DNA from: Pelecanus crispus
Taxonomy: Eukaryota > Chordata > Aves > Pelecaniformes > Pelecanidae
Direction of reading: 5' to 3'
Assembly: GCF_030463565.1 (NCBI RefSeq)
Contig: NC_134646.1
Coordinates: forward strand, 43,643,240-43,707,239
DNA: 64,000 nucleotides
Shown here: piece after piece, positions 1-56,344 of the stretch
Layout: every line of letters begins with the position of its first letter
How positions within the stretch are numbered: the first letter of the stretch is position 1
Program-made: the position numbers and the translations under genes
Notes under the pieces: model-generated
Database searches by the model: none
What the model was told of the DNA's origin: nothing
What the model saw: the letters and a program-made list of their open reading frames with translations, nothing else

Positions 1-346
1 CAGTATTTCTCAATAGTTTCTTAAAGTAAAATTAAATTAATGAACTCCACTTTTCTTCACTCCACATGATAATACTGTCCATGAGTCAAAACCTATCAGT
101 CTTTAGAGAGTCTATATTTATTCATTTTTTTATTTACTTGTGCCTGTTAAAATATAATCACTCATCAGGATTCCTAACTAGGAACAAAAATACTTTTGCC
201 AACTAACTAATTAAATTTGAAGTACAAAGGCAATTTAAATGTTTTCAACTGAGAACTACTAGTGCATTCAGAATATAAACCTTAAAATAAGGTAATAGAA
301 AAATAATAGAAAAAAGATTTGGAAAGACCAACTTGAATATACTCAC

Positions 347-510
347 ATGGGGTTTTTGTGTCTTTTTGACAGCAGCATTAGCATTCCTTGACACATCCTC
401 TTGCTGTACAATAAGTTTTGAAGTGCTGTCTTCCAAAGTGCTTCCATAAAAATGACGAAAAGTCTGCAACTTTTGTATTTGTCTTCTTTCTTCTGGATCT
501 TTGGATTTTG
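347..510 (-). CDS. DDX60: DDX60 coding exon 12 (last one in window)
   Basis: 164 bp, leaves in phase 0 at CAT/GTGAGT. It reads [20 protein letters not shown] and then [17 protein letters not shown], matching human SRDPRVLRSVQKYHVFQRFYG. The next exon should start near HETKAE in human terms and lies left of the window. Confidence 0.92.
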
Positions 511-14573: not shown

Positions 14574-14587
14574 CACAGATCTTGATT
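14210..14587 (-). CDS. DDX60: DDX60 first coding exon (acidic N-terminal segment), start codon at 14573-14571
   Basis: A CAG acceptor precedes 14587 and a CCTG/GTGAGG donor ends the exon at 14210 in phase 1. Coding starts at [10 protein letters not shown]. The segment is rich in D, E, S and K (for example [12 protein letters not shown]) and looks disordered. It is tied to DDX60 because its phase fits the next exon exactly, not because I recognise the segment; I do not recall it in human DDX60. An upstream in-frame ATG at 14594 would lie in the intron if this acceptor is used. Confidence 0.75.
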
Positions 14588-20935: not shown

Positions 20936-21186
20936 AGCTGGATGAACATGTGGCAGCTGGCCAAGGTCAACCCACCACATTCTTTCAGATCTCTCTACAT
21001 AATGCATGAGGTAAAGAGGGAAGGGGTAGAGATAGATGCTTGAGATGAGGATCCAAGAGAGCCATTCTTTCAAGCATGAATCAGAGTACCTAAAATCATC
21101 AAGCAGTTGGCAGAGTAACCATCTAGTATAGAAAAACAGCTGCAGAAATTTTAACTTGAGACATCTTACAAAGGGGAAATTCAAAT

Positions 21187-21547
21187 TGTAACTGCTCAGC
21201 AATGGTAACTGGAGACTGAGGAATAACCTGGTCCTGGCAATGGAAAAACCTCACTCCAGAACCAGGTTAAACACGAGAAACAGGAGTGCCAGAGGTGGAA
21301 TGACTTTATGTAAGGGAGAACAACTTTCCATGTTGATAAAATAAGAAATGCTACAGTATTGACTTGTAATATGACTGGTGCTGGCGCGTGTATAAGGAAT
21401 TGGCTGATGCCCCATGTTTGCAGACTCCCTGTAGAACCACTTACGGCAGTAGAACTGCGCAATGCATTGTCCATTAAATCACTTTATACTTAAGCACAAA
21501 TGGTATTTAATTCACCACAAGGTGTACAATAAAAATTCCCCAACACT
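21187..21547 (+). repeat. Possible solo LTR (weak)
   Basis: It has TG...CA ends (TGTAACTGCTCAG ... TTCCCCAACA), a TATAAGG box near 21391 and AATAAA near 21528, the layout of a short LTR. I found no target-site duplication and do not recognise the sequence. Confidence 0.3.
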
Positions 21548-23220: not shown

Positions 23221-24169
23221 TCCTAGAAAAGTAAATCTCAATATACTATCAAATTTAAGGGCATGAAACAAACCTTTTCAGGTATAAAATCTGTTGATCA
23301 TCACTAAATTGCATGTGGCTGTAAGAGGAGAGACAAAGAATTTTACATTAAATAGAAGAGCGTTCTTCATAAAATGAGAATGCTTTTCTCATGTGGCTGT
23401 TTTGAAATAAGATTCCCTACATGTCTGTCAAGCACATTAATATCCTCAAAACCAGTAGTAAAACACAATCTATAGAATTTCATGTGCATTTTCTGAGATA
23501 TATCCATCCTGGGTACAAAATGTGTCCTTATAAGCCTTTTAATTACATACTTACAGCATTGACACTTCCTGCATGAGCTTATAATTGCTGCATAAGCAAT
23601 TACCATCATTTCCAGACAAGCATGCAAAAGGTGAAATAGCTCTTCTTCCATTATTACAACCCATTAAGATGCCAGTTCTGAGTCAGTGCATTCATTACCT
23701 GAGAATACTAAACAGAAATTACATAAAATGTAAGTGTAGCCATATTTACACACATGATTCTTCTCCAACCCATACAAAAAGCTTCTTCATAGTAGTATTA
23801 TGTAAGCACTACCTCTATAAATTTGAAGTTACAGAAGAACATCTAAAATGTTGAAGACTTACTTTTTATTAAAGAAAAATTCAATCATGTTCTTCATCAA
23901 ATTTTTTAATGATTGAGATCTTTCTACACCCTGGTAAATCTTTCCTCACTTTGTATATACAGAGTCTCTATTCTCACCCACTTGTAGTTTTGGCTAAAAT
24001 GAAGCTCATCTGAGATTTCACAAGCATGCTCTTTGCCTCAGGTGTTTCTTAAAGATTCAAACCTTTTAGCGATTACTGAGAATAATTTTAGGGGAAAACA
24101 GGACCATTTTTTGCTAGTATTATTTTTCTGTTTCCTTAGAATCCTCTATTTTAAAAGGCGGTACCTACA

Positions 24170-25027: not shown

Positions 25028-25176
25028 CTACCAATTTCTAAAAGGGGAAGTCAGCATTCTTGTTTCATATCAGCCATTCTAGAAGCAAACAGGAACTGGC
25101 CAAAGTTCTCCTCTGTTTTGCTGTTGTACTCATTTAAAGCAGTAGCAAAAAATTCTGGGAGATCATTATGAATTAC
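25028..25176 (-). pseudogene. DDX60-like exon remnant 10, with TGA stop
   Basis: Reads VIHNDLPEFFATALNEYNSK, TEENFGQFLFASRMADMKQE, C, then TGA at 25053-25051, LPLLEI. Human has LDDLPEDFSDALDEYN ... SKLADMNQEYQLPLSKI. The exact 3' donor is one of two adjacent GT sites. Confidence 0.88.
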
Positions 25177-25279
25177 CTAAAGAAAAAACAAAATTTACAT
25201 TTATGTTTCTGAGTAGCTAGAAGAAAACATGAAATGCTATAATCAAATCAAATACTATAATTTAAGTTCATTATGATAC

Positions 25280-25630
25280 AGCCACAACAATTGACCAGTG
25301 ACAGCTGCTGGGGAGCAGGAAGAGCAGGGCCACCCCCAAGCTGGCAGTGCAGGGCAGGTGACCACACTGAAGGGCACAGTCCCACCACACCAGAGGCAGG
25401 TGGGCAAGCAAGCCAGGGCAGTGACAGCGAAGGGCCCTGCCAACAGCCCAGTCATCATCAGGCAAAGTAATAAGCCAAGGTCAACCCAGGAACCCCACAC
25501 AGCAACTCAGGAACATGGCCAAGACAAGCCAACTGCAACCACATGGAGCTTAAATGGAGCCCCAAGGTTGGGGGAGCATAGGGGAAGGCTCCAGGTGAGG
25601 CTGGTCAGGGCAATTAATGCCAATTAGTAC
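25280..25630. other. GC-rich block upstream of pseudogene exon 10, unassigned
   Basis: About 350 bases of AGGCAGGTG/GGGCA-rich sequence in an AT-rich intron. Open in several frames, without a recognisable protein or repeat. Confidence 0.3.
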
Positions 25631-26970
25631 ACTCAGGTCCCTGATGGTATCCAAGCTTAGGCCAAATTACTTTTCGAGCAACTTTCAGTATCTGTGCATT
25701 GACTTCCAAGAATCAAAGCTGACATAAAGCTAAGAGCCATGTATTTTGCAGCTTTGAAGCACAGAATTTCAAAGTAAATCTGCTCATTAGCTTCAGGATT
25801 TTGCAGACAATTTATCTTTTATTTTGTATTGTTTCGGGAGCTTACTCTTGAAGATGTGATTTGGTACTTTCCTGAGCTTGCAAATATAGCAAAAGAGTGT
25901 TTTAGAAAATGTGAATATGTCTTCTATACTGTGTGTTTCTTATTGATTATATGGGAAAGACCTTACTCGTCATTTCAGGAACTTATCATATGCTCAATGA
26001 AAACAGTATTAGAACAGAAGTGATCAAGTCCTGGGAGCTGTCTTGTTTTTTAGATGTTGTGTTCAAGAAAGCAGAAAGACAACACAATGAATAAATTCCT
26101 AATATTACTTTCCTGTGTAAATAACTGTTATCTTTCCAGATAAATATTTTTTAAAGGAAAAATCTTTCAGTACATGAGAAAAATTCTTAGGTTGTGGTCC
26201 ATATTTTGTGGAAGTTTGGCAAGGGCTTCTAGTTGTTGTAGAAATACATACTCTTTCGGAGAGGTGATATGCTTGCAAAGGACTCAAATACCTTTAAGGG
26301 ATCATCAACTTATATGGTTTACATCTGAGAATATATTCTGAATCAACAGTTAGGAATATGGCTGCTGTCATACTGACACTCTCAGTGGTAAAATAAAAAA
26401 TAAAGTGGGATATTTCTTGACAGGTTTCCAACTACCATGTACTATCACGTAGTCCACCTCTATTTGCTTTCTTTTATCATAATTTTAACACAATGGTGGT
26501 GTTACGATGGTGGTGTTAGAACCTACTGTCTAGCTGATAATGTGGAATTCCTGATCTGCAAAGGAAATACAGCATGAAACTTAAGCTTATTTGATAAAGA
26601 TGTCAAATAGAGCACATGGGCGGGGCAGGAGGGGAAAGAAAGTGTTCATTAGTAAATATTTCATCTCTGTTCACCATTCAGCATTTTTTATGCAAATGAA
26701 GTACATGGCAAGTGATTTGAAGTACATGGAAAATTTTGGGCCTGAACAGCACAACTGGAAAGCTTTTGGACAGTAAAAGCAGTAACAACCAGTATAGATA
26801 GATACGCAGTGATAAAAACTAAATGGCTTGACATATTTGAAAAGGAATTCACCCTGCAAGGAACGCTGCATGGATAGATATTTGTGCCCAGATAATATGC
26901 TGAGGCCACAAGAGTGTAAATGTAGAAATGATCCATTTTGTTATAAAAAAGAAATGTGATGAAGACTTAC

Positions 26971-27092
26971 CTCTTTCTTTAAAAAATGTACAGAAAACAA
27001 AAAGTACAGTCTTAACATCTCTAAGGCTTTTGGTTGTTTGAAGGACATAAATGAATGCCTCCATAGTGACAAAACTTTTGAGAGACAAATAC
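26971..27092 (-). pseudogene. DDX60-like exon remnant 9
   Basis: Contains SFKQPKALEMLRLYFLFSVH and FLKKE, matching human SFKQPRVMDMLKLYFLFSLQ. The 5' part is scrambled relative to human and needs frame changes; the remnant is 122 bp against about 105 in human. The donor GAG/GTAAGT is intact. Confidence 0.85.
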
Positions 27093-27689
27093 CTTAAATA
27101 ATCTCTTTAAAAAATCTAAACAGATCATCTACTAATAGTTAGCTGTTAGTTGTACAGTGATGATTTTGAGGTGTCTGGGAAAAAGAAAAAGTGAAAGATT
27201 GGGAAGGAGTATCTTTTTTCCTTCTTCTCTTTCTATTTGGAGTGGGGAACATTATTCTGCCAACAAAAATGAGATGTGAACCATGGATGAAGGTGTAAGC
27301 TATAAAGACGGTTATATACTTTTTTTCTTATACAGTAGATACCACCCTGTTTTCTTCCTTAGCCTTGCAGCCTTCTCCTCTCCATCCCAAGTAACAGAAG
27401 GTATTTCTCCTGAGTAGAGCTCTCTGTGAGCACTTTAAGTAAATAATAGAAAGAAAACAGGCATATTACACAGAATACAGAATAGAGAAAGAAAAAGATA
27501 ACAATTTTTTATCATTTCATGTAGTAGAAATGCTATTTTTTATCTGTTTACTGAAAACAGAATGCACATTTTTCGGTTTGCCAAAAACAAAATATAGATT
27601 TAACACATTTATTGAAGATTTAAAAATTATGTTTAGCTAAAAGATACAGAACCCATTCTCAAAATGAAGACTAAAACTATATCATATAC

Positions 27690-27889
27690 CTTTGCTTTTG
27701 CATCTGCCAGTCATCAGCTTTGGCAAAACCCAGCATGAGCCTCAATATCAATGTGATATTTAGCAGAAACTGTCCTTTCAGCTGAAGTACACTGGATTTT
27801 ACAAGTTTTCTCATTTTGGGCAGTGGAATATTATAGAAAATCGTATTTCCCAGCACATCCAGTCCACGCTGTCCAGCCCATCCAGACAT
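27690..27889 (-). pseudogene. DDX60-like exon remnant 8: helicase motif VI, mutated and frameshifted
   Basis: Reads MSGWAGQRGLDVLGNTIFYN, IPLPKMRKLVKSSVLQLKGQ, FLLNITLILRLMLGFAKADD. Human motif VI is MSGRAGRRGQD; both arginines that contact ATP are replaced (W and Q). After DDW one base is missing before DAKAK, so the exon is 200 bp instead of 201. Confidence 0.93.
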
Positions 27890-30029
27890 CTGAAAAGAAG
27901 GGTTCAAAAATACAATTTTATTTCATTTTCTATCCTAGCAAAATGTCACTTCAGTAATATTCAGGACTATGCTTTAAAGTGAATTGTGTTGTCAGTAGGG
28001 TTTTGGTTCCATAAAGGTACATTGAATCAATGATACCACAGTGTAACTTGTGGATGTTAGAACTTCCAGGAGAGTAGATAGGACCTGAGAGACCAATGAG
28101 TGGAGAAAATTTTGGCACAGTTTGACAGCACTCCAGGATTATAGTCTAGACAGGAAGAGAAAAGAGACTGAGGTGGAAGAAGAAAACAAGGAAGTGTTTA
28201 AGTGAATCAAACTATTCCTTCATCAAACTTGCTGTATTAGATGTATTGATATTGTGCTATCTCAGATGAAGACATTTTTAAATCAGTGCATTCCACATCT
28301 TTTTTGACCCTCAGACAGCTACCTCAGCTCTGGTCATTTGGGATGCAAGTAGGCAGGAAGAAAGATTTCAGAGATGTGAGAACCTTGTGTTATGCAACTT
28401 TCCTCCATGTGATTATTTTACTGTGAGATGCCTCGTACTATAATTAAATTAAACCTTTTAAAACAGTCAGTCAAGAGAAAAGCAGAGGCAAACCAGTCAG
28501 TGGCCCTATTCAGACCGTATTTTATGCTATACAGAGTAGGCATACAGGACCTTTAACAGCTGTTAAAGGAAAGAAGTGTAAAAAAATGTATACTGAGTTT
28601 TTTCATTTCAGAGTGTTTCAAATAATGAAGTTTTGCCACTTTCACTAGCTAAAAATTTATAAAGAATCAGGACTGGAGCTGTGAAGTGTAAATGGAGTTT
28701 ACATGCTGTTACTGGAGTAAGAGGAGTTTACATATTAGTATTGTAAAGTATAATTTTTTTTTTTTAAAGGGACATTTATTCCTCCACTGTTTAGAGGAGG
28801 ACACAGTCCTTTGTTCCTCCTGCTCTCTGTTCATGCATGTTTTATCAGGTGACCACATCCAATGCAAAGGCTTAAAACGATCTTGGTTTTTATGATTTAC
28901 AGATCCATTTATCCATGCCTGATTTTTTTCTATCCATCCAATTCTACATTTCATCCTGCCTCTGTGACATAGAGGAAAAATGTTAGTTTCAGCACTATAT
29001 GGCAAAACTAATGAACACAACTGCCAATTTCTTTCCCAATTTGTCACACAATTAAAAACCATCCCTCTCCAAATCACTGTAATCTGAGGTTGTCCCTGAT
29101 TCTGTTTGTCCTATGTATTTAAGCCAAGTCTAAATTATGCTGCATTATGATACATTAGTGACGAAATTATAGGTAAATTTCAGAAACTGCTACAAATGAC
29201 AATGAACACACTCAAGCACTCTACATGCACTGCACAATGTTACCAAAAATATGAGATTTTTCAGTAAGTTTTAGCCTTGCATTGTAAGTATTCTTTTTTT
29301 CCCTTCTTATTTATGGGCTTTAGTAACTATCTTCATTCAACTATACAAGTCTTAAGAATGGGGGGAAAAATCCTCCATCGATTATAACACAGAAAAATAT
29401 TTTTTCCCACTCACCTGTCTCCACCAGGATGCTTCCCTGCTTCTTGTACTTAATGCTGGCTAAACCACCACTGAAAGACTACATAGGCAGCAGTAGCTGG
29501 AAAAGGTCAGAGCAGGCTGAAGGACATGTAGGGGGAGAAAGGAGACAGAGAGCGTAGGCTGTGGATTAGCCTTCCTGAGGTTTAAGGAGCACAGTCCTCT
29601 TAAGAGATGTGTTACCTTGACTTGCCTAAAACATGGGCCTCAAGCATGCCTTGTTTCCAGACAGCTCTCATTTGGCTATTGGAATGCCTATTTATGATGT
29701 AGAGAGTGGTGGGAAGTCCTAGACAGTCAACACCATAAAACTCTGGCAATTACCATCCTGAGAGGGTGAGGAGGAAGAATTTCAGTTTGAGCTCTGTTTA
29801 CAACACAGGCTGCAGACATGAGTGTTTTTAGCCAAGGCAGCCAGGGAACAACCACAAATCTCCCTTTATACTTTCTGAACATGTGTTCATGCTGGACTGG
29901 GATTTCTTGCAGGTAATCAGGCAATTATAAATAAGAAAATATGTTGATTTATAATTGTGTCTAGTATGTACATAAACATATACACTTTACATGTTCAGTA
30001 TGTGTCATGCTGCTTACGTATTTCCATAC

Positions 30030-30062
30030 CTGTCTGTAGTTCAGAGCATCCAAGTAAGAGTT
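30030..30062 (-). pseudogene. DDX60-like exon remnant 7 (33 bp)
   Basis: Eleven codons, NSYLDALNYRQ, between a TTTTTACAG acceptor and CAG/GTATGG donor. Human has NSVYLDALNYRQ just before motif VI. It is in phase with the next remnant at 27889. Confidence 0.9.
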
Positions 30063-30999
30063 CTGTAAAAAGACAACAGATTTGCATGCATGTTAATTCC
30101 TAAAGCCCACGACCAACTAGCTGTAACAACCTGAAAGAAAAACCAAAAAAATGGTGCAAATTTATGTTTTTAGTCATAAGTTTCTATTCTGAAAACCAAA
30201 ATTTTTGAAGCGCAAAATTTACAAAATCAAATGTCTCTTTTCCTTAATTCCTTCAGGCACAGGTAAGACACACAAGTGTTTCACCCCTAAAATGACAGCA
30301 GACTTATAGTAGAGCCCAGACCTTCCACAACCAAGGTGGTTGTTCTGTTTAAATGAGGCACTTTTTAGAGTGATCATTAAAAATCTACATGTCTCAATTA
30401 CAGTTTGGTGTGACTTTTGCATTGTATGTTTTGTGTTTCAGATATGGAGTATTTGAGCAAAGGATTCTTCAGATACTTTTGGGGATTTAGCCTGTTCCAT
30501 GTGTGGTCTTCCCTGTCCCATGAGGAAAGTAAAGCTGAAAATGCTATCAATGAAAAGTCAAAACTTAAAGAACATAGCAGTTAGTACTGCAAATATACCA
30601 AGAATAGTAACAAAAAGTTTTTGCTACTCTTCCTCAAATAACAGTTCTTCTTCATTGAGAACAGTAATACAGAAAAAAAGTCACAGGATGAAATGAAAAT
30701 TAATTTTACATGCAAATCCCTGTCAGATGAGAAAAGGATTATGAAATGGAGTAGGAATGAAAATATGTAAGAATATTTAGCATTCTGAAATGGTGTCAAT
30801 TTATCAAACTATGCAGTCATACCATTTCAGTAAGGATTTATATTGGCATAGTTCTGTATTATTCATATACACATTTAATGTATTTATTGTTATTTTTGTA
30901 AGGGACTGTGCACAACCCTGGGTTTATCTAAGGGTAATAGGCATTTTACAGCATAGTCAGGTGAGCTGTAATATCAATGCGTATTCAGGGGCAAGCGAG

Positions 31000-33900
31000 T
31001 TCTGAGATAACAGGAGAAAGAGCAAGTTAGGTGACTGAAATACTGTTGTAACCCTGGAAAAAACAGACTGTTAAGCAATGTATAAATGACTATTTTAATC
31101 TTCATCTGTTCTTTGTACCGCCCTTTCCAATAGTGCAATCAGCTTTATCAGCTACCTTGGCAGAATAAACATTTCTACATGTTTGGTTTGAAGGCAACAA
31201 AGCAATCAGTCTCCAGCTTTGAGCGACAGAGTTGGCAGTGTCCCTTTTCAACATTAGTTAAAGATTTTTTAAAAACCGGGGTGTATTTGTTCCACATTAG
31301 TAAATGCTACTGGAATATCTCCCCCATCAATAGTAACCTCTTTATTGCAGCTAATAAACCCTTTCCAATTAGCCTTCAGGAAAAAGGGGATGTAAGATAG
31401 CTTATCACTGTTGTCTTCATATGCATAAAATCTTTGAAAAGGCAAGACACAAGACCTGTATAAATCCTTTTCTGAACAGCATCTACAGCGACTGTCTCTC
31501 TTTGTGGTCTATAGCAGCATGATAATAACCAATTCCCTTTCACAGAAGCGTCTTTAAGTGATTTGATTTGTTTCATTGACTGTGTTCAATCAGTCAACTT
31601 CTGCAGAGTCTAAGATAATAATAATTAAAATAAATGGTCTTCTTCCATATGACATTTGCAAGTTCACTGCCAAAATATCAAAATTATTTTTTAATAGCCT
31701 TTAGGACCATGGCTTACAACCTTGTAAGATACAGTGGTACTTTACAATGTATCAGTAAGGATGGAGAACAGACAAGTTTCCCAGGGATTCAAAGAAAGTA
31801 CGGAGTTAAGGAATGTCATAAACTCCTCACTTTTACTTAAAATCCATTAGTTTTCCTTCTATCTTACTGTAGAGAGGAGAAGCACAGAGCAAAGTATAGG
31901 CATTGTCCGAAAAAGAAAAAACTACAGAACTGGAATACTACTCTGGACACTTCTTTTATTCTTTTTTCTTGTAAAGAAGAGGAGAGAAAAAATGTAACTG
32001 CATGTAATGGATATTAGTTCTACACCTAATAGCAGTACCAGAACCTGCCAACATATTGTGATAGTAAGAACAATAGAAAACACATGTAAAATAAATTTTT
32101 TTGTGAAGTCTTCATGTAATACAAAAAGAAAGTATCGGCATTTTTTTTTTTCTCACCTCTGTACTGGCAGCTTGGCAGTTCCCGTATGTGCTGTCAGGAA
32201 GAATTCTAGTAATTGTCAAGTGTTTGCTGCATATGTTGCTGTTCAGCTTCACTAATTACAATTTTTTCAGCTTTGCTAACTGTCCTTTTCATGACACTGT
32301 ACAAAGTCAATATGGTTATTAGCCTGAACCTTTACCCAAGAAAGGTACTGATTAAAATGTTAAGTTCATTAGAATTTATATTATTATCTAATTTTTTTTT
32401 TAAATTTAATATACTTCTACCCAGACAATTCTCCTGACTTTTTTTCTGAGACACAGAAAACACAGAAAAACACTTCGCACTCCTGGAGAATTGAGGGGGA
32501 ACTGTGGATTATTTGTAGTTTAGAAAAGTCATTTGTATCTTTCATCATCTAAGACCTGGATTTGTTAATACTGATGCATTTCAGACGAGTCAAGTGCAAA
32601 TAATACTTCTATGGTCTTCTGTTTCTGTACTGTCTTTTCCATTTTTTCCCATTTTGTTTGTTAATGCTTTTATATCCTTTTCAGGTTTTGACATTTGTTT
32701 ACCCTTCTGTTTTTCCTTCAGGTAGTTGTTTACATTTTCAGCCCCTTGTTTCACCTTTTAAGGTTGAATCTGAAATCAGATTTTGGAGAATGAGAGAAAG
32801 CCAGGTTCTTCACATGTATTGTCTGTATAGTCATCTATGCAATCAGAAGAGCAAGTCTCTGGATGCCTAAGTATTTCCAGTTCCAAGGTTTATGGCAAAA
32901 GCGTCATAGCTGCTCTCCAAAGCAATGTAATTAGGGGGTGTTAGTGGAAGAGTTGAAAGTAGAATCTTCCACTGAATCCTGTGGGATCTCACCCGCATAA
33001 TAGTAGTTGGCAAGAAAGTATCTATGAGTGAGGAACTTCGTGAGGGACTTACTGAAACAAGAGGCTGCCAAGGAGTGATGACCACAACCATAACCTAGCA
33101 TCAGTACTGTGCAAAAAGATGAGGAAGCATTCTTAAAACTAGACCAATTCAGTGGAAAAATATATATATATTTCAGTAGCCCTGCATTTATTCCTAGCTG
33201 CAGTATAAACTTTCCCGTTAGTTTACGATTCAGAGCTTTGCCTGGTACGTTAAATGAGATGCATCATACATTCCAGTACCACCTGCAAGTTTATATAACA
33301 ATAGCAACTATTTCATGTATGCTATATTCAGTGTCTTGCCACTCACAGATGTTCTGAAATTGTGAGGAAATGGAAATTTTCCTTTTAATTTCAAATATTT
33401 CAGAGTCATAATGAGACCTACCCTAAGAATTGCATTCACTGTAAGATTTCTTAGATTCCAAGATACTTACTTTGATTATATGGAATACATCTATATTCTA
33501 AAAGCCAGACATTTTCTTTTTATTAATGTTGTAACTTACATAAAAAATAATACAAGCAGTTTATTAATTTCTCCCAGCTTTTCAACAAAGCGTAGAAAAT
33601 TGACTTTCATTTCATTTTCTGAATATGCACTGACACAAAGGTTGTAGCAAATCTAGCACATTCTTAACCTAGAAACAAAAGAAATAGTTGAAGAAGAGCA
33701 TGGAGAATCTACTTGATGTGTTTTTCAATGACTCCACATGCTCCTTCATTTAAAACAATACCCCTTCTCATATGCTCTTATCCTTAAGTCTGGAAAGTAA
33801 AATGAGTTCTTTGCATCTTTACAATGAAGAGATGTTGGAAGTCCTTTAAAACATTTTTAAAAGAGAAGGAGAATGTAAGATAAAAGGAGATGAACAATAA

Positions 33901-35000
33901 ATACAAGTACTTTAGGAATCAGAAATGCAAAGAAGTTATTGTAACAACTGTTAATCCTAAAGAACTCGTCATAAAGTAAAAACATATTTCTTAAAACCGA
34001 AGAAATTACAGCTAGCTTCTTTATCTATATAACAAGATTACAGTGCCATATTATAATATATTCCCTGATTTCTCTTTTTATTATGATATTTGTATCAATT
34101 TAAAAATTCAAGATTGTGTACCATCTAAAAAAATATTGGCAACTGTATCATCATTCACAGACTAAGCAAGAACATTCTGTGCACTTAAGAAAGATTGTCA
34201 TTGAGGTACAAAAACCTTAAAATTAGCAGGAATTGTATATATTTATTACCAAAAGAATGACAAATGATTTTGAGAACAAAAAACGTTGTGAATGAACTTT
34301 CTTGCTAGCAGAAGTAGACTTAATGATTTTGCATTAAATCCAATGTTTTAGTTTTACCCAAAGGCGGCTCTCACAGGAATTAACAACTGCAATTACCTCT
34401 TTATTATGGGAAATGTTATTATGGGAAATCCAATTTTTCAGTTCCTCTTTCAATTAATTTTCATATTTCCTTGCATCTGTCTTTTTGATTATTGGGTTAT
34501 TGTTAAAGCAGGTAGATTCCTCAGGATTCAGTTCCTTAAAAATATGTGGAAAATGTCAACACGAAAGTTCACTGACAAACATCTGCTCCAGCTAACTGTA
34601 GAAATAATAGCAATGTGTACTTATATGGGCCCTTAGCCAGTTTTTCCTGACTTTTACCATTGTGTCATATAATAAAAGACTTTCTCACAGTGATAAAGCA
34701 AGGTCTGAAGGGAACCCATATTTTCAGTGTACTATTCCAAAGGGGAAAAAACCCCCAACAACAACAAAACCAACAGAAATATATATTACTCTTGTAATTT
34801 TTTTCACTTTTATGCCTTAAGAAATTTTTTCTGCTCTGATATTTATACCTTTGGCTTTGATGCCTGCAATTCAGCATGAATTTTAAAATAGGAAAGAAAA
34901 TTTCTATTTAATACTTATGTCCATCAAAATACTCTGAACTCTGCTCCAAATGATACGGGAATCTCCATCACTGAGAATCTTAATTATTTTTTTATATAAC
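31000..35000. other. Pseudogene intron, no gene recognised
   Basis: AT-rich sequence where the DDX60 exons between the HPCAA block and the GVNMPC block would be expected on the minus strand. I could not recognise any of them. Only low-complexity runs (T-runs near 32140 and 32390) stand out. Confidence 0.5.
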
Positions 35001-35111
35001 ATTCCTGCACTTGATAATCTAAGCAGAAGACCTATTCTGGTCATGAAACAACTTAAAAATACATTTTCTAATCTTTTTACATTTTAATTCCATTTACTTT
35101 TGCTATTTAAC

Positions 35112-35252
35112 CTACATGCTTCACTGTTAAAGGCAGCACATGGATGGTAGTGATGGATGACAAAATCACCATTCTCCAAGGAACACAAATGCTCTACTAA
35201 ATCATTGTATCTCTCCTCATAGTGCAGTGTAAACATATTTAGGGTTTTACAT
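35112..35252 (-). pseudogene. DDX60-like exon remnant 6
   Basis: Reads CKTLNMFTLHYEERYNDLVE and HLCSLENGDFVIHHYHPCAA. Human has KVRLVLYGERYNDLEKHVCS and DHFHPCAAL. The acceptor ATTCAG is intact; the 3' limit is uncertain because the GTTAAA donor is weak. Confidence 0.9.
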
Positions 35253-37404
35253 CTGAATATTAAAAGCCAGCATTTGAAAGCTGGCATGCTTAAAGCTGTA
35301 GATATCACCTTCTCAGTGATGCCTAGAATGCACTTCTTGGGCTTTGCTCTGACCTGGATCACTGGGCAACACAAAGTTAAACATCAGCAGCCAAAAGAAT
35401 AGGATTATTTTCAGCCTGGATCATGTCAGTGATCCATCCCCACAGTCCTGTACTGATACAAGTATCAGCACAAGTATAGTTACACTTGCAGCTGCTGAGG
35501 CCAAACTGAGCAGCAGAGAGAGGGAGAGCCTCAATCTAACTCCCCCATTGTACACAATGTATTTTGTAGTGAAGTACAAGTTAGTGTGACATGTGAGCTG
35601 ATGACAGTTCATTGCAGCTGCTTGAGTATCTCCTTTTTATAACACCTCTCCTTCTCCTTCAGCTCTTCTCTTTCACTCCTTTCCCCCCACTGCTCACTCT
35701 CAAGCACACAGCCTCTTCCCTTTTCTAGTTTTGTTTCTGCCACTCATTTGCTTATTCAGGTCACTAAGATGGCAGAAAGCTATTCACTTCTTTCTTAGGT
35801 TAGTTCTCTCCTGCATTGTCTTCATAAATTCACTCACTGTGGAGCCAGACAAGTACCAGAGCCAGTGTGAGATGTGGTGGCTCACACAGCTGGGGCAGGA
35901 GAGAGAAAAGAGAGTGGAGAAGGGGAGAAGCAAAACTAGGGTGGCCTTTCTTGCCCCAGCAAACAATTAGATTGGCTTGGCTCAGGGCCTCTGACAGTAC
36001 TCTTCAGAAATCTCCATATTTGCAAAGATGTTTACTTTCCCATTTATATCAATGCTAACTGTAGGTACTAAGGATGCAGACAAACATGCGATTCAATTCT
36101 AAATACAGAATTAAGTGCCTAAACTTAGATGCCTATATTTAAAAAATTTAACTGTATTTTGAAAGAGACTAGTATTTGAATTAAAGGTATTTTAGTTTCC
36201 CCCACTTATCCAATTTAACACTGTATGTGTAATTTACTGTCTCGGCAGTTTTCTGTTTTCTCCTTCCTTTTTTTTGGAATCCGTCAACAAACTGGGGATT
36301 TCTTCTTTCCTCTCAGCATGCTGCCAGCATCTCTTTACTTTCTGTAATGATCACAAATAAAATAAAATAAAATACAATGCACTGTATTACTTTTCTAGCA
36401 GATGTAATATAGCTATACAAACTTGGCAAACACTTCAAAACAGCAACAACAAGAACTAGTGCAGAATCCACTGGTAAAAGGATATGATTCTATGTCACTA
36501 AGGAACACACTTTTTATTTCCATTTGTCTAACAGCCTTTGGGTGGCAGACGATGAACAGTATGTAAATGGCCTGCTGTGGGCCTAAGAAGTTTCCTCATT
36601 TATGCAGTATGGGCCTGACCAGCCAGAGATTAGGTAGATCCATTGGCTTCTTTTAAGATGCACAGTTAGCAGCATGGCAGTGTCCGAGAAGCTGCTGAAC
36701 TGTTTTTTAGATAGAGCCCATGGATTCAATCCCTCATCTTTTTTAATACAATCCAAATACAGATTTGTACTGTGTTATACATTTTCTACCCAGGATTCAT
36801 CATAATAGGCAAATGCTGACAAAAAGTTCCATCTGGAAAAAGTAAGTGGAAACTACAAATAAGACAATTAGAAAGTTAGCAAACTGAACATGATATTGTA
36901 GCCCATTGTATGTGTTTATTCATTTTTGTAATACACAGAATGATTTTACTTTGTACTTTTCTGTGTGCCTGCATGTCTATGCATATATGTGTAGCTATTT
37001 CTCCACATGTGTATCTTTGGGTGCATAAGTGTATGGATGTTAGTGCAAGAGGAAGAAAATTGCTTGGAGAAAAGCTCCAGATCCCAAACTCCATATGACA
37101 CAATGCCCAATAACTTATGTCTCTGATTTCTGGGATGGAATTCTACACCTTCCACCTGACACTTCAATAAAATAGTTACAGTAACTGCTAAACCAGTGAA
37201 CATATGCATTCCTCGGTGAGACAACTGTGATGCTAATGACAGTGTATTTCTTCTACAGTGTCATCCCTTGTCCAACAGTGTTAGTTTTTGTATGTTCTTA
37301 TTTCTTTGGAAGTTCACGATTTAGAAGTAGAAATTTTTAATATTGATATAGCCCCAAGTTTGAATAATCATATTTTTAAAAATAATTGAAATAATAGAGC
37401 ACAC

Positions 37405-37524
37405 CTGACAGTTGAGAGCATCATGGCGAAAATCCCATCTGAAAACACCACTCACTGCTAAACCATCTGGCAGTGTTTTATTAAATCGATTATAAATAGT
37501 TGCCCATACTTGGCTAACAAGAGC
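37405..37524 (-). pseudogene. DDX60-like exon remnant 5: helicase motif Ia region (open)
   Basis: Forty uninterrupted codons, ALVSQVWATIYNRFNKTLPD, GLAVSGVFRWDFRHDALNCQ, against human ALVNQVAATVQNRFTKNL ... REYRHDALNCQ. It follows remnant 4 (PTK/AL) in phase. The donor is CAG/GTGTGC. Confidence 0.92.
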
Positions 37525-37604
37525 CTGGTTTTCGGGAAAAATGCAGTACTTAAGTAATAAGTAAACAAAAGTAAGAGATTAAAAAGTGTAAACAAAGATC
37601 ATGG

Positions 37605-37818
37605 TTCATTATCTTCCAGATGACACAAAACTAGGAGTGGCTGATATGTCAGAGGGTCATGCTGTGGGGGTGACTGAGCACTGACGCAGGTTGCCCAGGG
37701 AGGTTGTGGAGTCTCCCTCCTTGGAGACACTCTAGGTGGCCCTGCTTGAGCAGGGGTTGGACCAGATGACCTCCAGAGGTCCCTTCCAACCTCAACCATT
37801 CTGTGAGTCTGTGATCAC
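37605..37818 (+). mobile_element. CR1 3' fragment, internally deleted
   Basis: It starts with a piece resembling the CR1 polymerase FADDTKL region (CCAGATGACACAAAACTAGG) and jumps to the 3' UTR (GTTGCCCAGGGAGGTTGTGG, then CAGATGACCTCCAGAGGTCC). It ends CATTCTGTGAGTCTGTGA, a diverged octamer repeat. It belongs to a different subfamily from the two long copies and lies in the intron of the DDX60-like pseudogene. Confidence 0.85.
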
Positions 37819-38260
37819 TGGGCTACCCATATTATACTACAGTAACTACAGCAGTAACTACTGTATACTAAAGTCAATTCAAAATACAATTTATAGAGAT
37901 TAATGATGTGGTATGATAGAAAGCAACTCAGCCTGCTAAGTATATCAGAAAATAATGATGACAGGAGGATTATACTGAATGCAAGAAAGATTGCAAAAGA
38001 TCAGTTTAGCCACATTGTAGAGGCCATATTAAACACCTGTCAACTTTTCTGCTGATTTCCATGTGAGTTTGGTCTTGTCTTTACTTATTACATGTTGAAA
38101 ATTAATGATTTAACTCCAGCTAGCTAGATCATTAGCCTGCACATCAGCTTAGCTTCAAAAAGTCCAATGTAACGGCATGAATTCACACACATTGATGATA
38201 CTGTAACACTGTAGTGAATTACTATTTTGTATTAAGCTACACAAAGTACTGAAGTCACAC

Positions 38261-38410
38261 CTTTGTGGGAGCAACATACACAACTACGCCTTCATTACTT
38301 TCCATGAGGAATTTTTCCATGCAGTAGCATCATGCACAAGTTTTCCCTGATGAAGTACAGGCAACAATCCCTGCAGACTTACTGTTATCTACAATATCAA
38401 GAATTTCTTG
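38261..38410 (-). pseudogene. DDX60-like exon remnant 4: helicase motif I (Walker A), TGA stop
   Basis: Reads QEILDIVDNSKSAGIVACTS, SGKTCA, then TGA at 38332-38330, CYCMEKFLMESNEGVVVYVA and PTK. The ATP-binding TSSGKT is kept (38356-38339) but translation would end three codons later. The length (150) and splice sites are as in the functional gene. Confidence 0.93.
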
Positions 38411-39150
38411 CTGAAAAGGGAGCAAATGGATGTCAAGTTAAGAAAACTTTTTGTGATAAATCCAGAATCGCACACACACAGTTGTAACATTTCACTGATA
38501 TAGGGTAAATATTTTCTTTTTTTTTCTTCTTTTCTTCACCAAATTTTCTTTAAGAATTTCCTTGTTAACAGAAATTCATCTTTCCTTAACTGATGTCATC
38601 CTTCTATTTAGTATTAATAAAGCATGATACTGTGAATAAAGCTTCTAGTTCCTTCTATCAATCCTCATCAGTTTATCGTGTCTCACAGTATCTAAGCTAT
38701 AGACTATTTTTGCTTTCTTGTTCCAGAAAAAATGAAGTTTTTTGAGATTGGAAATCCCCATTTTGTATTTATATTCTCACTTTTGGTGGAAAATGCTTGA
38801 AAACATAATCTAGATATATCCCAAAGTTCTGAATAGAAAAAAAATTAAAAAATAATTTAAAAAATTGTTTTGATCTGATTATTTTAAATCCAGTCCCATG
38901 ATACTTGAGACTTCACTCACTTTGTTTGAAATCAACAATACTGAAATGAGAAAGTACATGTCACCTTCACTCTTTTCTTTGTTGAGCCTATTCAAATAAC
39001 TATTGGGTCAAAGGTATATGTCAGAGTAATTTTGTATCCATGTCTCAAGATTATCTTTCAATTTAATTTATTTCTTATAATACTAGTGTCTTCCTGTGCA
39101 CACCCATAAACATAAGCATATGAAATAAAATTTACAGTGTATGGTATTAC

Positions 39151-39334
39151 TTGCCATGTATCTCGATAAAAACTTTGAGCTCTGGAATCTCTGTCTCCCT
39201 CTCTTCTCATAACAGGTAATGGCCCGTGTGCTGTAGTTGAAACAGAGCTACTCCCAGACTAACAGAAAATGTGGAGACCTCTGCTTGACTGTGCTCTGGA
39301 TTCTGTAGATGCTTAGTACATTCTTCAGTTGCAT
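39151..39334 (-). pseudogene. DDX60-like exon remnant 3, with TGA stop and frameshift
   Basis: Reads FSVSLGVALFQLQHTGHYLL, then TGA at 39209-39207 where human has arginine, and EERETEIPELKVFI. The frame changes before DTWQ, which joins exon remnant 4. A length of 184 is one base short of what the phases need. Confidence 0.9.
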
Positions 39335-40809
39335 CTAAGGACCCAGAAAATATTCTGGGCAGACATTAATTCTTAAATAAATGAAATCTTGATGAAGTGG
39401 GTAAAAACAAACGCCAAATGCAAAATACATCCCAGCTTGACAAAACTACCTACTTATTTGGAGAAATGACACACAAATGATGCAAGCATCAGTGTAGGAA
39501 GAGTTAAGCAAAGTTTAAAAAAACAACTGCGCAAACTGAATGGATAAAGAGCAAGATGTGGCAACAACATAAAGCACATACTAATATATCAGAAATTATC
39601 TGACATTCTGTTAAGGATTTCAGTTCACAAGCTTGGCACTTTTCCCAAATATGGATACAATGGCCTGTATTTTTTAGGGAGGTAGGCCTACAAAATGCAA
39701 ACGAATTCAAAAGGAGTACAATTTTTGGAACTTCAGACTGGCCTTCAAAGCAACTCAAAAAAGCCATTAGGACATCTGAAAGATATTTACATTCAAATTT
39801 GCATCCTTACAGGGGAAAAGAGACAAGACCAACTTCCATCCTGGATGGGAACCCTTAATGATAAGATTAGATGATCAATCATCTCAAACCTGTGATGACC
39901 CCAAATGGCTGATTACCATGGTATCTAGTTTCAATTAGGATGCAGTACTGGGTGGCATATAATAATCCCATGTCTGTATCTTTATTAATAATGTTTGTCA
40001 ATTACAAGTTTTAAAAGATACAAAGGCACAGAGGATGAGGTTGCCTTAAATAATACCTGCTTATCACTTCAACTAGCAGCAAAAGAATTTTACCCCTCAT
40101 TGATTGGAGCAGTTTTAGTTAGGCAAAAGAGTAAAGAAAATCATAGATGGTCTGCTAGGGTGGTATGTGCTCTTTGGAAAAGAAAAAGAAGCATAATTTA
40201 GAGAGAGTATTATTGAACTCCTAAGTTGGAAGTAAATGGGATTGCTGGAGAGTCATTTAAATCTGAACAAACTGCTGGAGGACACTGAGAAAGAAACTGA
40301 TTATAAAAGCTTACATACTTCACAGGGAAAGTGCTTCTTAAGGTACCAAGCACCAATACCTGATATGCAGTCAGCCATGCTGTGCTAGGCATTTAAGAAC
40401 AGTTGTAAATGGCAGCAATGTTAGAGGTCTAGGGGTTAAAGCCTTGGTGATACATGTTATGGAGTCAGTCCCTTGTAATAAAATTTGTTCTTGCCTTTTC
40501 CTTGTAAAGAATATAGAATTAAAATACTATTAGAGACCTTCTATGGAGGTTTTGCACTTTTTGAAATTCAGGAAAGATAATCTTAGCTTTCACTCCATTA
40601 TTTGCTTATAACAAGTAGTACAGGCAACTATAAATAGTGCATCTCTGAACTTTACAGTTCTTGATTTTATGATGTAAGTTTTTATTGGGGGTTTCATTTT
40701 CACTGCTTTAACTTAATATTTTGAGAAAAACAGTACCAACTATGCAACAGCAAATATATATAGGAAAAATAGAAAAATGATCAAATTTTAATTATTTTAT
40801 AGACATAAC

Positions 40810-40914
40810 CTGTGGACAATCCAAATTGTTTGCCAAATTCTCAAATCCAGAATATCTAAGGCATTTGGAAATCCTCTGATAATCTGTTGTCTCCAGTAAA
40901 TCATGCTATTTATC
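40810..40914 (-). pseudogene. DDX60-like exon remnant 2, with TAG stop
   Basis: Reads DK, stop (TAG at 40908-40906), HDLLETTDYQRISKCLRYSG, FENLANNLDCPQ. Human has EKYSELLQEDDRQLIARCLKYLGF, so the stop replaces a tyrosine codon. Acceptor and donor dinucleotides are intact. Confidence 0.9.
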
Positions 40915-41463
40915 CTGTAGAGAATGGATTCTTCTCATTGCTTCAACAGCTATTCTTCTGCCTTGGGGAAAAAAAAGCCAGCCGTAATGATTGTCACATT
41001 CAATACTTTTGCTTTTAAGAATCTATCCCCTAGTGGAAGAAACTTTCAAAAATCAGGAGCCAGTGACTCTCACAGATGTCTCAACGCATACAGAAATCAG
41101 CATATGCAATAGATGTACTTGGAAACAAAAATGCATGCATATTTTGTCTGCAAATGTGCAGCATGCATTTTCCCCTGGTCTCCCCTATCATTCCAGACCT
41201 CCAGTCCTATCAGCCTTAGAGGCACCTGCTGGTCTGAGTCAAATAGTTACTGTTGTCAGCCCACCCCTAACTCTTGTCACCACTTCATTGCTAGGCGTTA
41301 CTTGCCCCATTATTCTACATTAACTGACGATATGCTAACCTTTATCTGTTAGGTGATCCAGCTTGAAAACAAAACAAAAAGCTGCAGTAAGAAGCTGGTA
41401 TGTACAAGAATGGAAATGATTAGCCTGAAAAGGGTCAAACCAAAGGTTGCTGCAAGCTGTTTA

Positions 41464-41672
41464 TAATTTCCTTTCATTCCTGGAGAGTGTGTCAGGGGGG
41501 TCATCAAAATAGCTCAAATTGAGCAGCGTCAACTGTCCCAAACTGAATGGGTTGCGGGTCTGGGCAACCACAAAATAGAAATGCATCACCTGATGCAGGA
41601 CCAGATTGACACTGTGGAGGGAGAGTATTAGGTAGAAGAGAGGCCATTACACCCGGTGGATGCATACCTCAC
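41464..41672. other. Orphan open segment, both strands, unidentified
   Basis: The minus strand is open (VNLVLHQVMHFYFVVAQTRN, PFSLGQLTLLNLSYFDDPPD, TLSRNERKL, stop) after a good CCTCCACAG acceptor. The plus strand is also open (KIAQIEQRQLSQTEWVAGLG, NHKIEMHHLMQDQIDTVEGE, Y, stop). The GC content is higher than around it. It is not part of DDX60 as I know it; it may be a retroelement scrap or an exon relic. Confidence 0.3.
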
Positions 41673-42160
41673 TCATGGACCTTTTTACACCTTATTGTTC
41701 ATTACGTGAGGAACATATGTTCATCATCACTGCTATGAATTTAGTGAAAACAGAAATGAACTAAGATATGCAAGCTTGACATAATAAAAAGACCCTTAAA
41801 AAGCACAATATGGGTCTACTGTGGGCCTTAGCATGTTTAAGGCATTCTTCCCTCTTCTGTTACTCAGCTGGCCCAACAGATCTGCAATATACCTATTTTG
41901 AAAAACTGCTTCTTACAAAACTCAGATGATGCCAAACTGATAAATTATTGGAAAGCCCAGAAAACTCCTCAAATACAGAATATGCCTCTCCCACAAAGTG
42001 ATTTCCTTGAGGTAATCTGAGCCGCACACAACTCTGCTGTTAGTATGAAAACACTGTGCCATTACAATAGGCAAAGTTTATTACGATGTTCTTCTCCAGT
42101 CTTCACACAGTTAATTCCTGCCATCCCCTGCAAAGAAACCACAAAAATATGTACACTTAC

Positions 42161-42409
42161 CTTTATCTAGGGATTGTTCTTTCCACAGTTGAAAACAGAC
42201 ATTCAAACCAGACATTTCTGCAGTACATTTAACAGAATTACTTTGACATGTTTCCAAGAAATCTTTTAACTTATTTATTCCAGACCTAAAATTCTGTTTA
42301 ATTTGGTTGTCAATGCAAAGGGTTTTCCATTGTTTCCGCTCTTTTTTTTTCCCTCTTCATCTCTCATCCTTTTCTGGTTTTCTTCAATTATTTTTTCTGC
42401 TTTTGAATG
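42161..42409 (-). pseudogene. DDX60-like exon remnant 1
   Basis: Starts HSKAEKIIEENQKRMRDEE, loses the frame at an A9 run near 42346-42338, and resumes ERKQWKTLCIDNQIKQNF and GINKLKDFLETCQSN. Human has TKAEIIARENKKRL ... WNALSFSIEEQLKENLHSGI. The length (249) is one base off the expected phase. The donor AAAG/GTAAGT is intact. Confidence 0.88.
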
Positions 42410-42419
42410 CTACTGATAA

Positions 42420-45400
42420 ACCAAATTATGTATAAGGTATTTGTGAAATTTTAGTTGACAAATGTCAAATGTCTTCCATAAATTCCATGTTCATTGCTTT
42501 ATAAATTTGATTTACAGTTTGCATTTTCTCTCATATAAAATATTTTCAAAACAAAATCATAGTCAGTGCATATACTACCAGTAGTAACCCAGTGGTAATT
42601 AAACATACCCACATACAGTGAAAACTTGTCCAAGGACAAAGCGATACTAAGGCTTTGAGAATGCTTTAATCTTTGTTGTGAGTAAAGGACACATATCTAC
42701 TCTACCATACATACGAGTTGGTTAATAAACAAATGCACAAAACAGCAGTGATATTCAACTGACTACCTCACATATTCAGACTAAATGTAACCTTTTTTTT
42801 ATTGTATTATTCAAACTTTTTGAAACAAATTTATTTATTTTCACTCTTTCTCACCTAGTATCCAAAATTACAATGATATTTAGAATAAAAAAAAATTGTA
42901 AAAGAATAATATTCACCACTCATTTGCTAATCAAACTGTCTAATAATAATAATACCTAGAACACTGATTCCCTCATGTGCCTTTGCCATTCCTCTGCCCT
43001 GTCCCATTTTCTGTGTATTAGCCAAGAACCAAAATAATTGTTGTACACACATAAGCAGTGTGAATGGCCCAGCTTTTAGGAATCTCTTCCCCATAAGAAA
43101 TGCTCAGAAAAGATGTGAGGGCCACAAGCTCAATAAAGGACTAGTACTGATCCTTTATTATCACTATGCACCACTAAACAAATGGCAGATTGAAGAGATT
43201 TATCATGAAGTCTTGCTGACATTCTGAACTGTATTTTTGAGGAAATGTGTGTCTGAATGTATTGAATAACAATCACTCAAATGCCAGTGTACTAGGTAGA
43301 ACCTAAGAACCAAAGTAAACTTATACACATACATCATATGATGAAACATTAGTCCATTCAACATATATCTGTGCAATTCTAAAAGAATTTTCTCCAAGAA
43401 AACGTATTTGAAAATTCTCTGCAGTCACTTTTATTTTTGCCTTGATGCGCAAAAGGTAGCAATTTTTCTTCACAGCTTTTAGTTGTGAGATTGTCATTAT
43501 CATTTCCATTTTGAAAACAAACTGCAGATGCCATGACTGTCACCTTTCAGTTTACATATGCTTATTAGACAGAGGTGTTTTATCTCCACATATTACATCT
43601 GCATATCTCTAAGGAAAAAAATATTCTTATAAGTTTTATTAGTTAAATAACTGTACAAATGAGACAATGGAACTTTGAAACATGAAAACTAACTATTGTT
43701 ATAAGTTGCGGTAAATCATATTTACTGATTTACTTCATCAGGGTTGGAAGTCAATGGACACCAACAACCCTAAGCATAGCTACTGCCATCCCTTCTGTGC
43801 AACTCACAAAACTGCAAACTCACTCTCACTCACACCAGTGCAAGTGCCCAGGAAAATGAAGAGCATCAAAACTGGCTATACAGGAAACCCTCTAGGCTTC
43901 ACTGCCTGCTGGAATATTACACCATCCATTCAACTTGCAGAAGAAAGGTAAGAAGAGAGCTCTTTGTCAAACATACCTAGATGTCTGCAAAGGAGAAATG
44001 GTAACTTTTATGGGCTTTTGAGGTAGTTGACTCTGTGACTGAACACTCACAGACAGCATGTCCCAAGAGGAAGCTTTACATTTCAATTCCTGAGACTCAC
44101 TCATAAGATTGCTTTCAGTTTAGGACTTAAAACACATACTCCAGAATAATCCTATTAAAAATAGAGGTAAGAATGCTGTAATGGCTTGTTTACATAGAAA
44201 TTATATATCCATTGATCACAAAACTGTGCAATATATTCTCATACAGTAAGTACAATTACCTCAAAATAATGAAAGTTTTGTGTTAACTAATTCCTCAACA
44301 TTGTGTATTTACATGTTGTAGTTGCACATGTGTAGGTATTTTTTTTAAATATATTACACATAATTATTACCCCAATTCCATATAAAAGGTATCTAATTCC
44401 TCCTCTAAAACTGTTTTTATCAACATAAAATTTCTAACTCTCCAGCCTGTTTGGATTATTTTAGGATTTGAGGGTGGCAACAAAGTGAATTAAGCAGTTT
44501 GTTGTTTGGTCTGTTTTGTTTAGATTGCCACCCTCCCTCCCTCTTGTTATGTAAAGTAAAATCTAGATTGACTGGTTCTGTTGCATCCTAATTTTGCACA
44601 CCAGACCTGCCTCTATTTCTGCCTGTACCACCTGTGCAACAGTACAGTTAATGCTATTGCAAAAAGTTTTGTGGTTTTACCTACCCACCCTGCCTAAGCC
44701 AGGTTTTAGCCTTGCCCAGATTTCAAAGCAAATAATATATGTATTAGATTGCTTATATGGCACCTTAGAATTTCAGAGCCTTTTGTGAAAGCATCACAAA
44801 AACCTCCTGTCTTTCATCTACAGGTTCCTTGGATCCAGTCAATTTTTGATGGCAAAGCCAGAAATTGTATTCCAAACAGTCTGAAGGTGTTGTTTCTAGT
44901 AATCCACTTGGGTGACTCATTGTTTCAGTGGCTCCCTCAGCTGTCTCACTGACAGTTTTTAACTCTCATACGCATACTTGCATCATCATTAAAGGGTGGT
45001 TGTCTTGGCTCTTCAGCCTGGCTTCCTCCCAGATCCACATACATCCTCTGACTGGTTGAATATTTTGCATGATTATCTGTAACATTTCACCTTTTAAAGA
45101 GAGTTCATTAGTTCCCTGATCAATCAGTCTGACTCCCTTTTCTAGACTAATGCCACCAGCTTCATATAAGGACCAGAAAATCGCTGTATAAGGTATCGCT
45201 GAAACTCAATGGACATCTCATTTAACAACCATGAAATACATGAATTTAGAATTAACTGTTCCTTCTTTGGTAGGGAGTATCCAATATAAGGTGCACATCT
45301 GATGCTGTAGAATTTAAAGCATATAAAAACATACCTACAGGTAACTGCATACTTTGCCTCTTTATCCTGATTCTAACCAAGGTATCAAACAGGACAGGAA

Positions 45401-56244: not shown

Positions 56245-56344
56245 GATGCAAGACAGAAGCTGTGGCCAGGCATTGCCTCTTTCTTTAATGCTGAAGGAGG
56301 CTTACTGTGCAGAGAGGGGCACCAATAAGGGATATCCTGAAAAT
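56245..56344 (+). other. PALLD: PALLD 5' UTR part of first coding exon
   Basis: A TTTATGTCTTCCAG acceptor ends at 56244. The reading frame is open upstream of the start (from an ATG at 56228), so an N-terminal extension is possible; I prefer the ATG at 56345 because it matches the human start MSGTSS. Confidence 0.7.

Follow-up and report, generated by a model that had tools for sequence, protein, structure and literature searches.

The stretch analyzed here (the window) is 64,000 nt of the Pelecanus crispus genome (RefSeq assembly GCF_030463565.1, contig NC_134646.1, positions 43,643,240 to 43,707,239 of the forward strand); positions below are counted from its first letter. Its minus strand carries two genes of the DDX60 helicase family: the 5′ exons of a living gene on the left (14618-326) and, on the right, a multi-exon relic (43534-23593) whose pieces span the protein from its first coding exon almost to the C-terminus. 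DDX60 proteins fall into two ancient clades, called I and II here; the relic belongs to clade I, and the gene annotated as DDX60 in birds to clade II.

The relic and its lesions

The relic was traced by tblastn with turtle and bird DDX60 proteins as queries, by profile slices built from sauropsid clade I, and by frameshift-aware alignment. Nineteen pieces were recognized across about 20 kb, all on the minus strand and in protein order (percentages are tblastn identities; P numbers are protein records):

43388-43534, minus: first coding exon with intact start codon and free of stops; profile slice (independent E 4.1e-8), aligned to residues 1-51 of turtle P0057
42156-42409, minus: exon, frameshift near 42351; tblastn (61.5% to turtle P0047), profile slice, alignment
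40807-40950, minus: exon, TAG stop at 40908; tblastn, profile slice, alignment
39151-39287, minus: exon, TGA stop at 39209, frameshift near 39196; profile slice, alignment
38261-38416, minus: exon with motif I (TSSGKT), TGA stop at 38332; tblastn (71% to turtle P0047), profile slice, alignment
37402-37524, minus: exon after motif I, no GT donor following; tblastn (79% to turtle P0047, 62% to bird P0001), profile slice
36187-36347, minus: exon, frameshift near 36277; profile slice (independent E 1.2e-4), alignment
35113-35221, minus: exon, frameshift near 35131; tblastn (73% to turtle P0047 over 30 amino acids), alignment
34628-34723, minus: exon, TGA stop at 34687; tblastn
34415-34537, minus: exon, TAA stop at 34456; tblastn, alignment
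33539-33622, minus: exon piece; profile slice (independent E 7e-9)
32610-32757, minus: exon piece, frameshift near 32649; profile slice (independent E 3e-4), alignment
32124-32292, minus: exon piece, frameshift near 32223; profile slice, alignment
31450-31569, minus: exon, TGA stop at 31542 and TAG stop at 31485; tblastn, alignment
30027-30139, minus: exon (ALGINM/CKSVVF), frameshift near 30087; tblastn, profile slice, alignment
27689-27892, minus: exon carrying the altered motif VI (MSGWAGQRG), acceptor AG kept, frameshift near 27708; tblastn, alignment
26971-27081, minus: exon, donor GTAAGT kept; tblastn, profile slice
25033-25176, minus: exon, TGA stop at 25053, acceptor AG kept; tblastn, profile slice, alignment
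23593-23705, minus: C-terminal exon piece, frameshift near 23668; tblastn (80% over 20 amino acids), profile slice (independent E 6e-11), alignment

Seven of these pieces contain in-frame stops, eight in all next to 871 aligned sense codons, and there are about nine frameshifts, whose positions are approximate (the aligner was home-made). Several splice signals are intact and others are lost. Because its exons are split by introns, with some splice sites kept, and because of these stops and shifts, the relic is classed as an unprocessed pseudogene; a processed copy was considered and rejected.

The two ends are recognizable by profile: the first coding exon (beginning MASAVCFQNG) by the slice for residues 1-60, and the C-terminal piece over 23667-23605. 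Between them, profile slices found no exons for residues ~61-520, which include the PIN-like domain (residues 79-299 of P0057), and the space for these, between the 43388-43534 and 42156-42409 exons, is just ~1 kb. They likewise found no motif II exons between 37402 and 36347. Motif I is intact; motif VI reads QMSGWAGQRG, that is, GWAGQ for GRAGR (codons TGG and CAG), so that both canonical arginines are gone and a third, adjacent one is still there. With its stops, frameshifts, missing PIN and motif II exons, and altered motif VI, the relic can make no helicase. Its loss of constraint is also visible at 125 columns that never vary across the other 80 alignment rows (at least 55 filled): 19 are altered in the relic, as compared to 0-6 changes in 115-131 such columns when each of 10 intact rows was left out singly as a control.

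By sequence, DDX60 is the nearest of the Ski2-like helicases to the relic. In a phmmer search of the PDB, its joined helicase pieces matched trypanosome kDDX60 first (E 3.5e-21), then MTR4 (2.9e-8), DOB1, BRR2, and SKI2, and the listed protein matches are of the DDX60 family. The DDX60 domain set (PIN-like, DEAD, and Helicase_C) was not found in it, and Pfam searches with four single exons gave nothing better than E 0.1. We read the lack of PIN-like and motif II exons as decay: the relic is a member of the family by descent, with no working protein.

A first-pass annotation, made from the letters of the window, had described a second, broken DDX60-family gene here, and that description is borne out by the order of the tblastn matches, by kDDX60 as the top phmmer match, and by the stops and shifts, as compared to an intact control of 699 residues in the neighboring gene (below). 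The three exons it singled out (38261-38410, 37405-37524, and 27690-27889) all match turtle and bird DDX60 in tblastn, and the loss of both motif VI arginines that it reported is real. It was right about order and strand but not about count and extent, with ten pieces over 42409-25028 where there are 19 over 43534-23593; the disablement by stops and frameshifts likewise stands, with eight stops in place of its four.

Two ancient DDX60 clades

Three protein searches listed, respectively, the top 120 of 301 matches, the top 120 of 312, and all 16 of 16, and statements below about which lineages have which gene refer to the matches listed. Up to 174 of the 176 retrieved proteins were used in trees, whose rows are without human, chicken, fish, and frog; the primates are macaque, capuchin, squirrel monkey, and lemurs.

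With the relic alone as query, the top 13 proteins were turtle records of clade I (copy I; 510-542 bits), followed by gecko (478 bits), with bird DDX60 at 440 bits or less (best 120 of 312 matches). Over its alignment columns the relic is 62-65% identical to 12 turtle copy-I rows and 52-56% identical to 19 bird DDX60 rows; taken singly, 17 of the 19 pieces are closer to turtle copy I than to birds, with piece borders that may be a few residues off, since 8 of 716 relic residues were not placed in the alignment. Local scores of the first exon were 100-108 with four turtle copy-I proteins and 22-33 with 11 clade II proteins, as compared to a maximum of 52 in 300 shuffles. Just two columns are strictly diagnostic between the clades; the relic has the clade I residue in both, but two are too few to lean on.

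In a careful tree (55 rows, 693 columns), clade I has support of 100/97 and clade II of 100/99, and the relic lies inside the sauropsid part of clade I (100/98). This clade contains placental DDX60, DDX60L (squirrel monkey and horse), marsupial DDX60, squamates, and turtle copy I, as well as the relic; clade II contains bird and crocodilian DDX60, turtle copy II, tuatara, platypus, the second kind of marsupial and elephant genes, and an elephant-shrew DDX60-like gene. The same two clades appear in a quick full-length tree that was built from 44 intact proteins (1673 columns) without the relic (support of 99 and 100 in the Shimodaira-Hasegawa-like approximate likelihood ratio test). They also appear in a FastTree run on 175 rows, in which clade I has 98 rows and clade II 75, both with support of 1.0, and only two caecilians lie outside; it adds horse, bat, and shrew genes to clade II. 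The trees that include the relic separate it from avian DDX60; what the first-pass annotation overlooked is that the living neighbor belongs to the other ancient lineage.

Clade II takes in all 44 named bird records, which represent 36 species (emu, tinamou, ducks, geese, quails, and pheasant included), and all five crocodilian records (three species; P0039, P0040, P0064, P0090, and P0125). Turtles have 14 records in clade I and seven in clade II; the 11 squamate records are all in clade I, and so are all primates in the data. No clade II gene was listed for primates, rodents, or carnivores. Other placentals do have clade II records: horse (P0089, P0117, P0142, P0153), bats (P0065, P0094, P0160), shrew (P0116), elephant (P0145), and elephant shrew (P0144). 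Horse, elephant, and shrew have clade I records as well; with DDX60L in addition, horse has three DDX60-type genes on record. In green turtle (P0050, P0068), Asian elephant (P0071, P0145), and common shrew (P0149, P0116), the clade I and clade II records come from contigs of equal size (142,324,156, 83,887,677, and 452,700,413, respectively), and since the sizes agree, the two copies probably share a single chromosome-scale contig in each.

Since turtles, marsupials, and placentals all have rows in both clades, the duplication predates the divergence of birds and mammals for any root between the two clades. Horse and squirrel monkey DDX60L branch with placental DDX60 ahead of marsupial DDX60 (100/100 in the careful tree, 100 in the full-length tree), and DDX60L is for that reason a later duplicate on the placental line. 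Forced topologies were compared by log-likelihood (lnL) and the approximately unbiased (AU) test. Placing the relic with birds lowers lnL by 98.9 (AU p 3.8e-9), with birds and crocodilians by 96.4, and with DDX60L (horse, squirrel monkey) by 122.2. Forcing all mammals into one clade costs 57.3 (p 9.4e-6), forcing archosaur DDX60 into clade I 79.5 (p 1.5e-4), and placing it next to mammalian clade I alone 115.2.

The living DDX60 and other features of the window

The remaining gene features are as follows:

326-14618, minus: 5′ exons of the living DDX60 (clade II), running off the left edge; tblastn, most 86-94% identical to Aquila (eagle) P0001
about 14567-14184 (acidic N-terminal exon), 12421-12245, 12123-11773, 11276-11166, 9652-9506, and 8589-8422, minus: living DDX60 exons
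about 7917-7774, 6057-5899, 3676-3578, 2850-2728, and 511-326, minus: further living DDX60 exons
56222-57292, plus (opposite to the relic): open frame of 357 amino acids, probable PALLD exon 2; Pfam I-set match (9.6e-6) over residues 325-356, at the end of the frame

The helicase part of the living DDX60 is beyond the left edge of the window. Over 173 residues it is 86-96% identical to the 25 best-matching bird proteins, with little egret P0002 (96%) at the top of the 160 retrieved proteins compared. Aligned to DDX60 of the parrot Pezoporus (11 stretches, 699 residues), it shows one event only, the TAG at 11279. Residues 301-315, covered by the stretch with this TAG, are matched by the preceding exon as well, and the TAG is therefore read as intron sequence just before an exon, leaving the living exons without a disabling change. 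An acidic bird-type N-terminal exon (14133-14618, minus) is 58% identical to parrot P0009 and has no Pfam match. The placement of the relic between DDX60 and PALLD, as first annotated, is upheld on its left by these exons; on its right, the frame at 56222-57292 is presumably PALLD exon 2.

A long interspersed nuclear element (LINE), which we take to be CR1-like, lies at 18033-21250 (minus) between the two DDX60 genes. It has an endonuclease-like frame (20606-21250) with a weak Exo_endo_phos match (E 0.0066, under the family cut-off) and further long frames downstream without a Pfam match. Positions 3813-4674 and 18033-18852 are inverted copies of one element, with protein-level identity of 91-100% in most frames and 76% at one end; given this high identity, the copy at 3813-4674, in an intron of the living DDX60, is probably a young insertion. 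Another repeat is present as two diverged direct copies (1632-2288 and 5876-6829; 47-77% in short protein alignments) in DDX60 introns, and a short fragment at 37652-37822, just upstream of a relic exon, is 52-63% identical to the CR1-like repeat. Self-comparison of the window shows repeats but no match of DDX60 to DDX60, because the exons of the two genes within it overlap only at the first. Rfam has nothing at the gathering threshold over the window.

History of the two copies and known systems

The history we propose, and regard as very probable, begins with a common ancestor of birds and mammals that would already have carried a pair of DDX60 genes, copies I and II. From copy I would have come placental DDX60 and then, by the later placental-line duplication, DDX60L; copy II would be the gene named DDX60 in birds, crocodilians, and tuatara, with turtles and several mammals keeping both. 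In this bird, copy I lay between copy II and (probably) PALLD; its PIN-domain and motif II exons are lost or blurred beyond recognition, and it has gained stops and frameshifts and lost the motif VI arginines. From the sequences, the relic is best described as the dead orthologue of placental DDX60 and DDX60L together, and avian DDX60 as a hidden paralogue of the primate-type gene rather than its true counterpart. Both ancient copies may formerly have been interferon-induced helicases, copy I being an antiviral factor like human DDX60, and its loss may have been tolerated while copy II remained.

Several other accounts can be weighed against this one. The first-pass annotation had left open two of them. 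In one, birds or archosaurs tandemly duplicated their own DDX60 and one copy decayed, in keeping with two genes that are close together on the same strand and with listed crocodilian and bird records that include no clade I protein; but both placements of the relic with archosaurs are strongly rejected by likelihood under the model used, identity is higher to turtle copy I than to bird DDX60, and the first exon matches copy I only, making independent duplication extremely improbable. In the other, the dead gene is strictly avian DDX60L, with DDX60 and DDX60L being the two ancient copies, both kept in human. Its premise of a duplication older than the bird-mammal split has held, and the relic has the same position as human DDX60L, between DDX60 and PALLD (the human order, DDX60, DDX60L, PALLD, is taken from that annotation). 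The branching of DDX60L within the placental part of clade I, ahead of marsupial DDX60, and the largest of the likelihood penalties nonetheless make the identification highly improbable. That annotation had also named a single rearranged or misassembled DDX60, with N-terminal exons at 14.6-0.3 kb and the remainder at 43-23 kb. The two exon sets do share no protein coordinates save the first coding exon, but they barely overlap because the living gene leaves the window and the relic is without residues ~61-520. Since the relic possesses a separate, clade I-type first exon, is disabled, and is near 55% identical to bird DDX60, while the left exons are intact and close to bird DDX60, a single gene is scarcely credible.

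It is also very unlikely that the relic still yields a truncated protein or an interferon-induced non-coding RNA: the first exon is open with a start codon and some splice signals are kept, but stops lie in seven of 19 pieces, motif II was not found, motif VI and 19 of 125 invariant residues are changed, and the window has no Rfam match. Finally, the two clades could be an artefact of gene conversion, possible for paralogues on the same chromosome, or of long-branch attraction, to which the long relic branch and the two pieces leaning to birds might point. The clades hold over 1673 columns without the relic, however, and turtles, marsupials, and placentals are each in both; we consider an artefact very unlikely.

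Constraint on copy I may have been lost within the age of modern birds. At an assumed bird mutation rate of 1.9e-9 per site and year, the eight stops correspond to 36 million years (15-70); at 1.3e-9 the figure is 52 (23-103), and at 2.5e-9 it is 27 (12-53). The 19 changes at 125 invariant columns give ~41 million years at 1.9e-9, and 48-50 with looser column cut-offs. Together these would put the loss of constraint roughly 35-50 million years ago, with wide error. The relic branch is far longer than a neutral phase of this length explains: either copy I evolved fast while it was constrained, or the clocks run short.

Several points weigh against the history proposed above. At the DNA level it draws on one bird, Pelecanus crispus, and human is not among the tree rows. 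Two of the 19 relic pieces (36347-36210 and 30139-30086) are nearer birds than turtle copy I. The relic branch is long (0.65), with its sister relation to turtle copy I weakly supported (82/31), and the root is set by two caecilians with moderate support (88/63), fish and frog not being among the rows. Most of the tested groups were chosen after inspection of the tree, so their p-values are optimistic; the placements of the relic with birds and with DDX60L were preset. Both clocks use an assumed mutation rate and only the still-recognizable exons, and the listed crocodilian records are also without a copy-I protein, from which the loss could predate birds, where the clocks say it is younger. 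Since those records are all in clade II, copy I may have been lost in crocodilians too.

The matches listed suggest that birds lack clade I, fairly strongly for full-length annotated proteins, since a bird clade I protein should have outranked others in the search with the relic, and weakly for unannotated genes, the listings being of best matches. A reciprocal fate can be tentatively proposed, the balance tipping slightly against it: the primate line would have kept and doubled copy I and lost II, and birds would have retained II, their loss of I falling well within the age of modern birds and perhaps happening repeatedly. If the dates are right, the lack of clade I proteins in listed bird records leads one to expect different lesions in each bird order.

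As compared to human DDX60 and DDX60L, the relic is of the same family and, given the human order above, in the same neighborhood beside PALLD; judging by the placental rows, it would be their sauropsid orthologue. Unlike them it is dead, and DDX60L, arising later on the placental line, is the counterpart of neither bird gene. Annotated avian DDX60 (duck, goose, pheasant, eagle, egret) corresponds to the same-strand neighbor of the relic; eagle DDX60 (P0003) shares its PIN-like, DEAD, and Helicase_C domains with turtle copy I. Unlike the placental DDX60 lineage, avian DDX60 is in clade II. The nearest intact relative of the relic is turtle copy I (P0047, P0050, P0057, and others), with 62-65% identity and the same first exon; it is not annotated as broken, and turtles hold records of both copies.

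Human DDX60 and DDX60L are described as interferon-induced and antiviral with distinct roles (PMC7077277); influenza raises DDX60 in duck tissues, where it is interpreted through the function of mammalian DDX60 (PMC8602823); and a viral mimic raises DDX60 in crocodile cells (PMC5702629). Duck and crocodile DDX60 fall in clade II in the trees here. In one review avian DDX60 is termed a functional orthologue of its human namesake (PMC7157566), contrary to our trees, which indicate that it is a paralogue. If bird DDX60 is the other ancient copy, transfers of function between bird and human join genes that parted before the bird-mammal split; and if the reciprocal fate is true, work treating bird DDX60 as the human orthologue compares paralogues. 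No report of two ancient DDX60 clades or of a dead bird copy was found in the literature searched, whose coverage mostly excludes subscription papers; automatic gene-database trees may already hold the split.

The records also amount to a natural experiment, with both copies in turtles, Tasmanian devil, elephant, horse, and shrew, copy I in all squamate records, and copy II in all those of birds and crocodilians, so that a division of labor between the copies is testable. A parallel is the loss of RIG-I in chicken (PMC8494776), also an antiviral RNA helicase gene lost in birds; unlike that case, the wreck of DDX60 copy I is still in place, and the other paralogue bears the lost gene's name.

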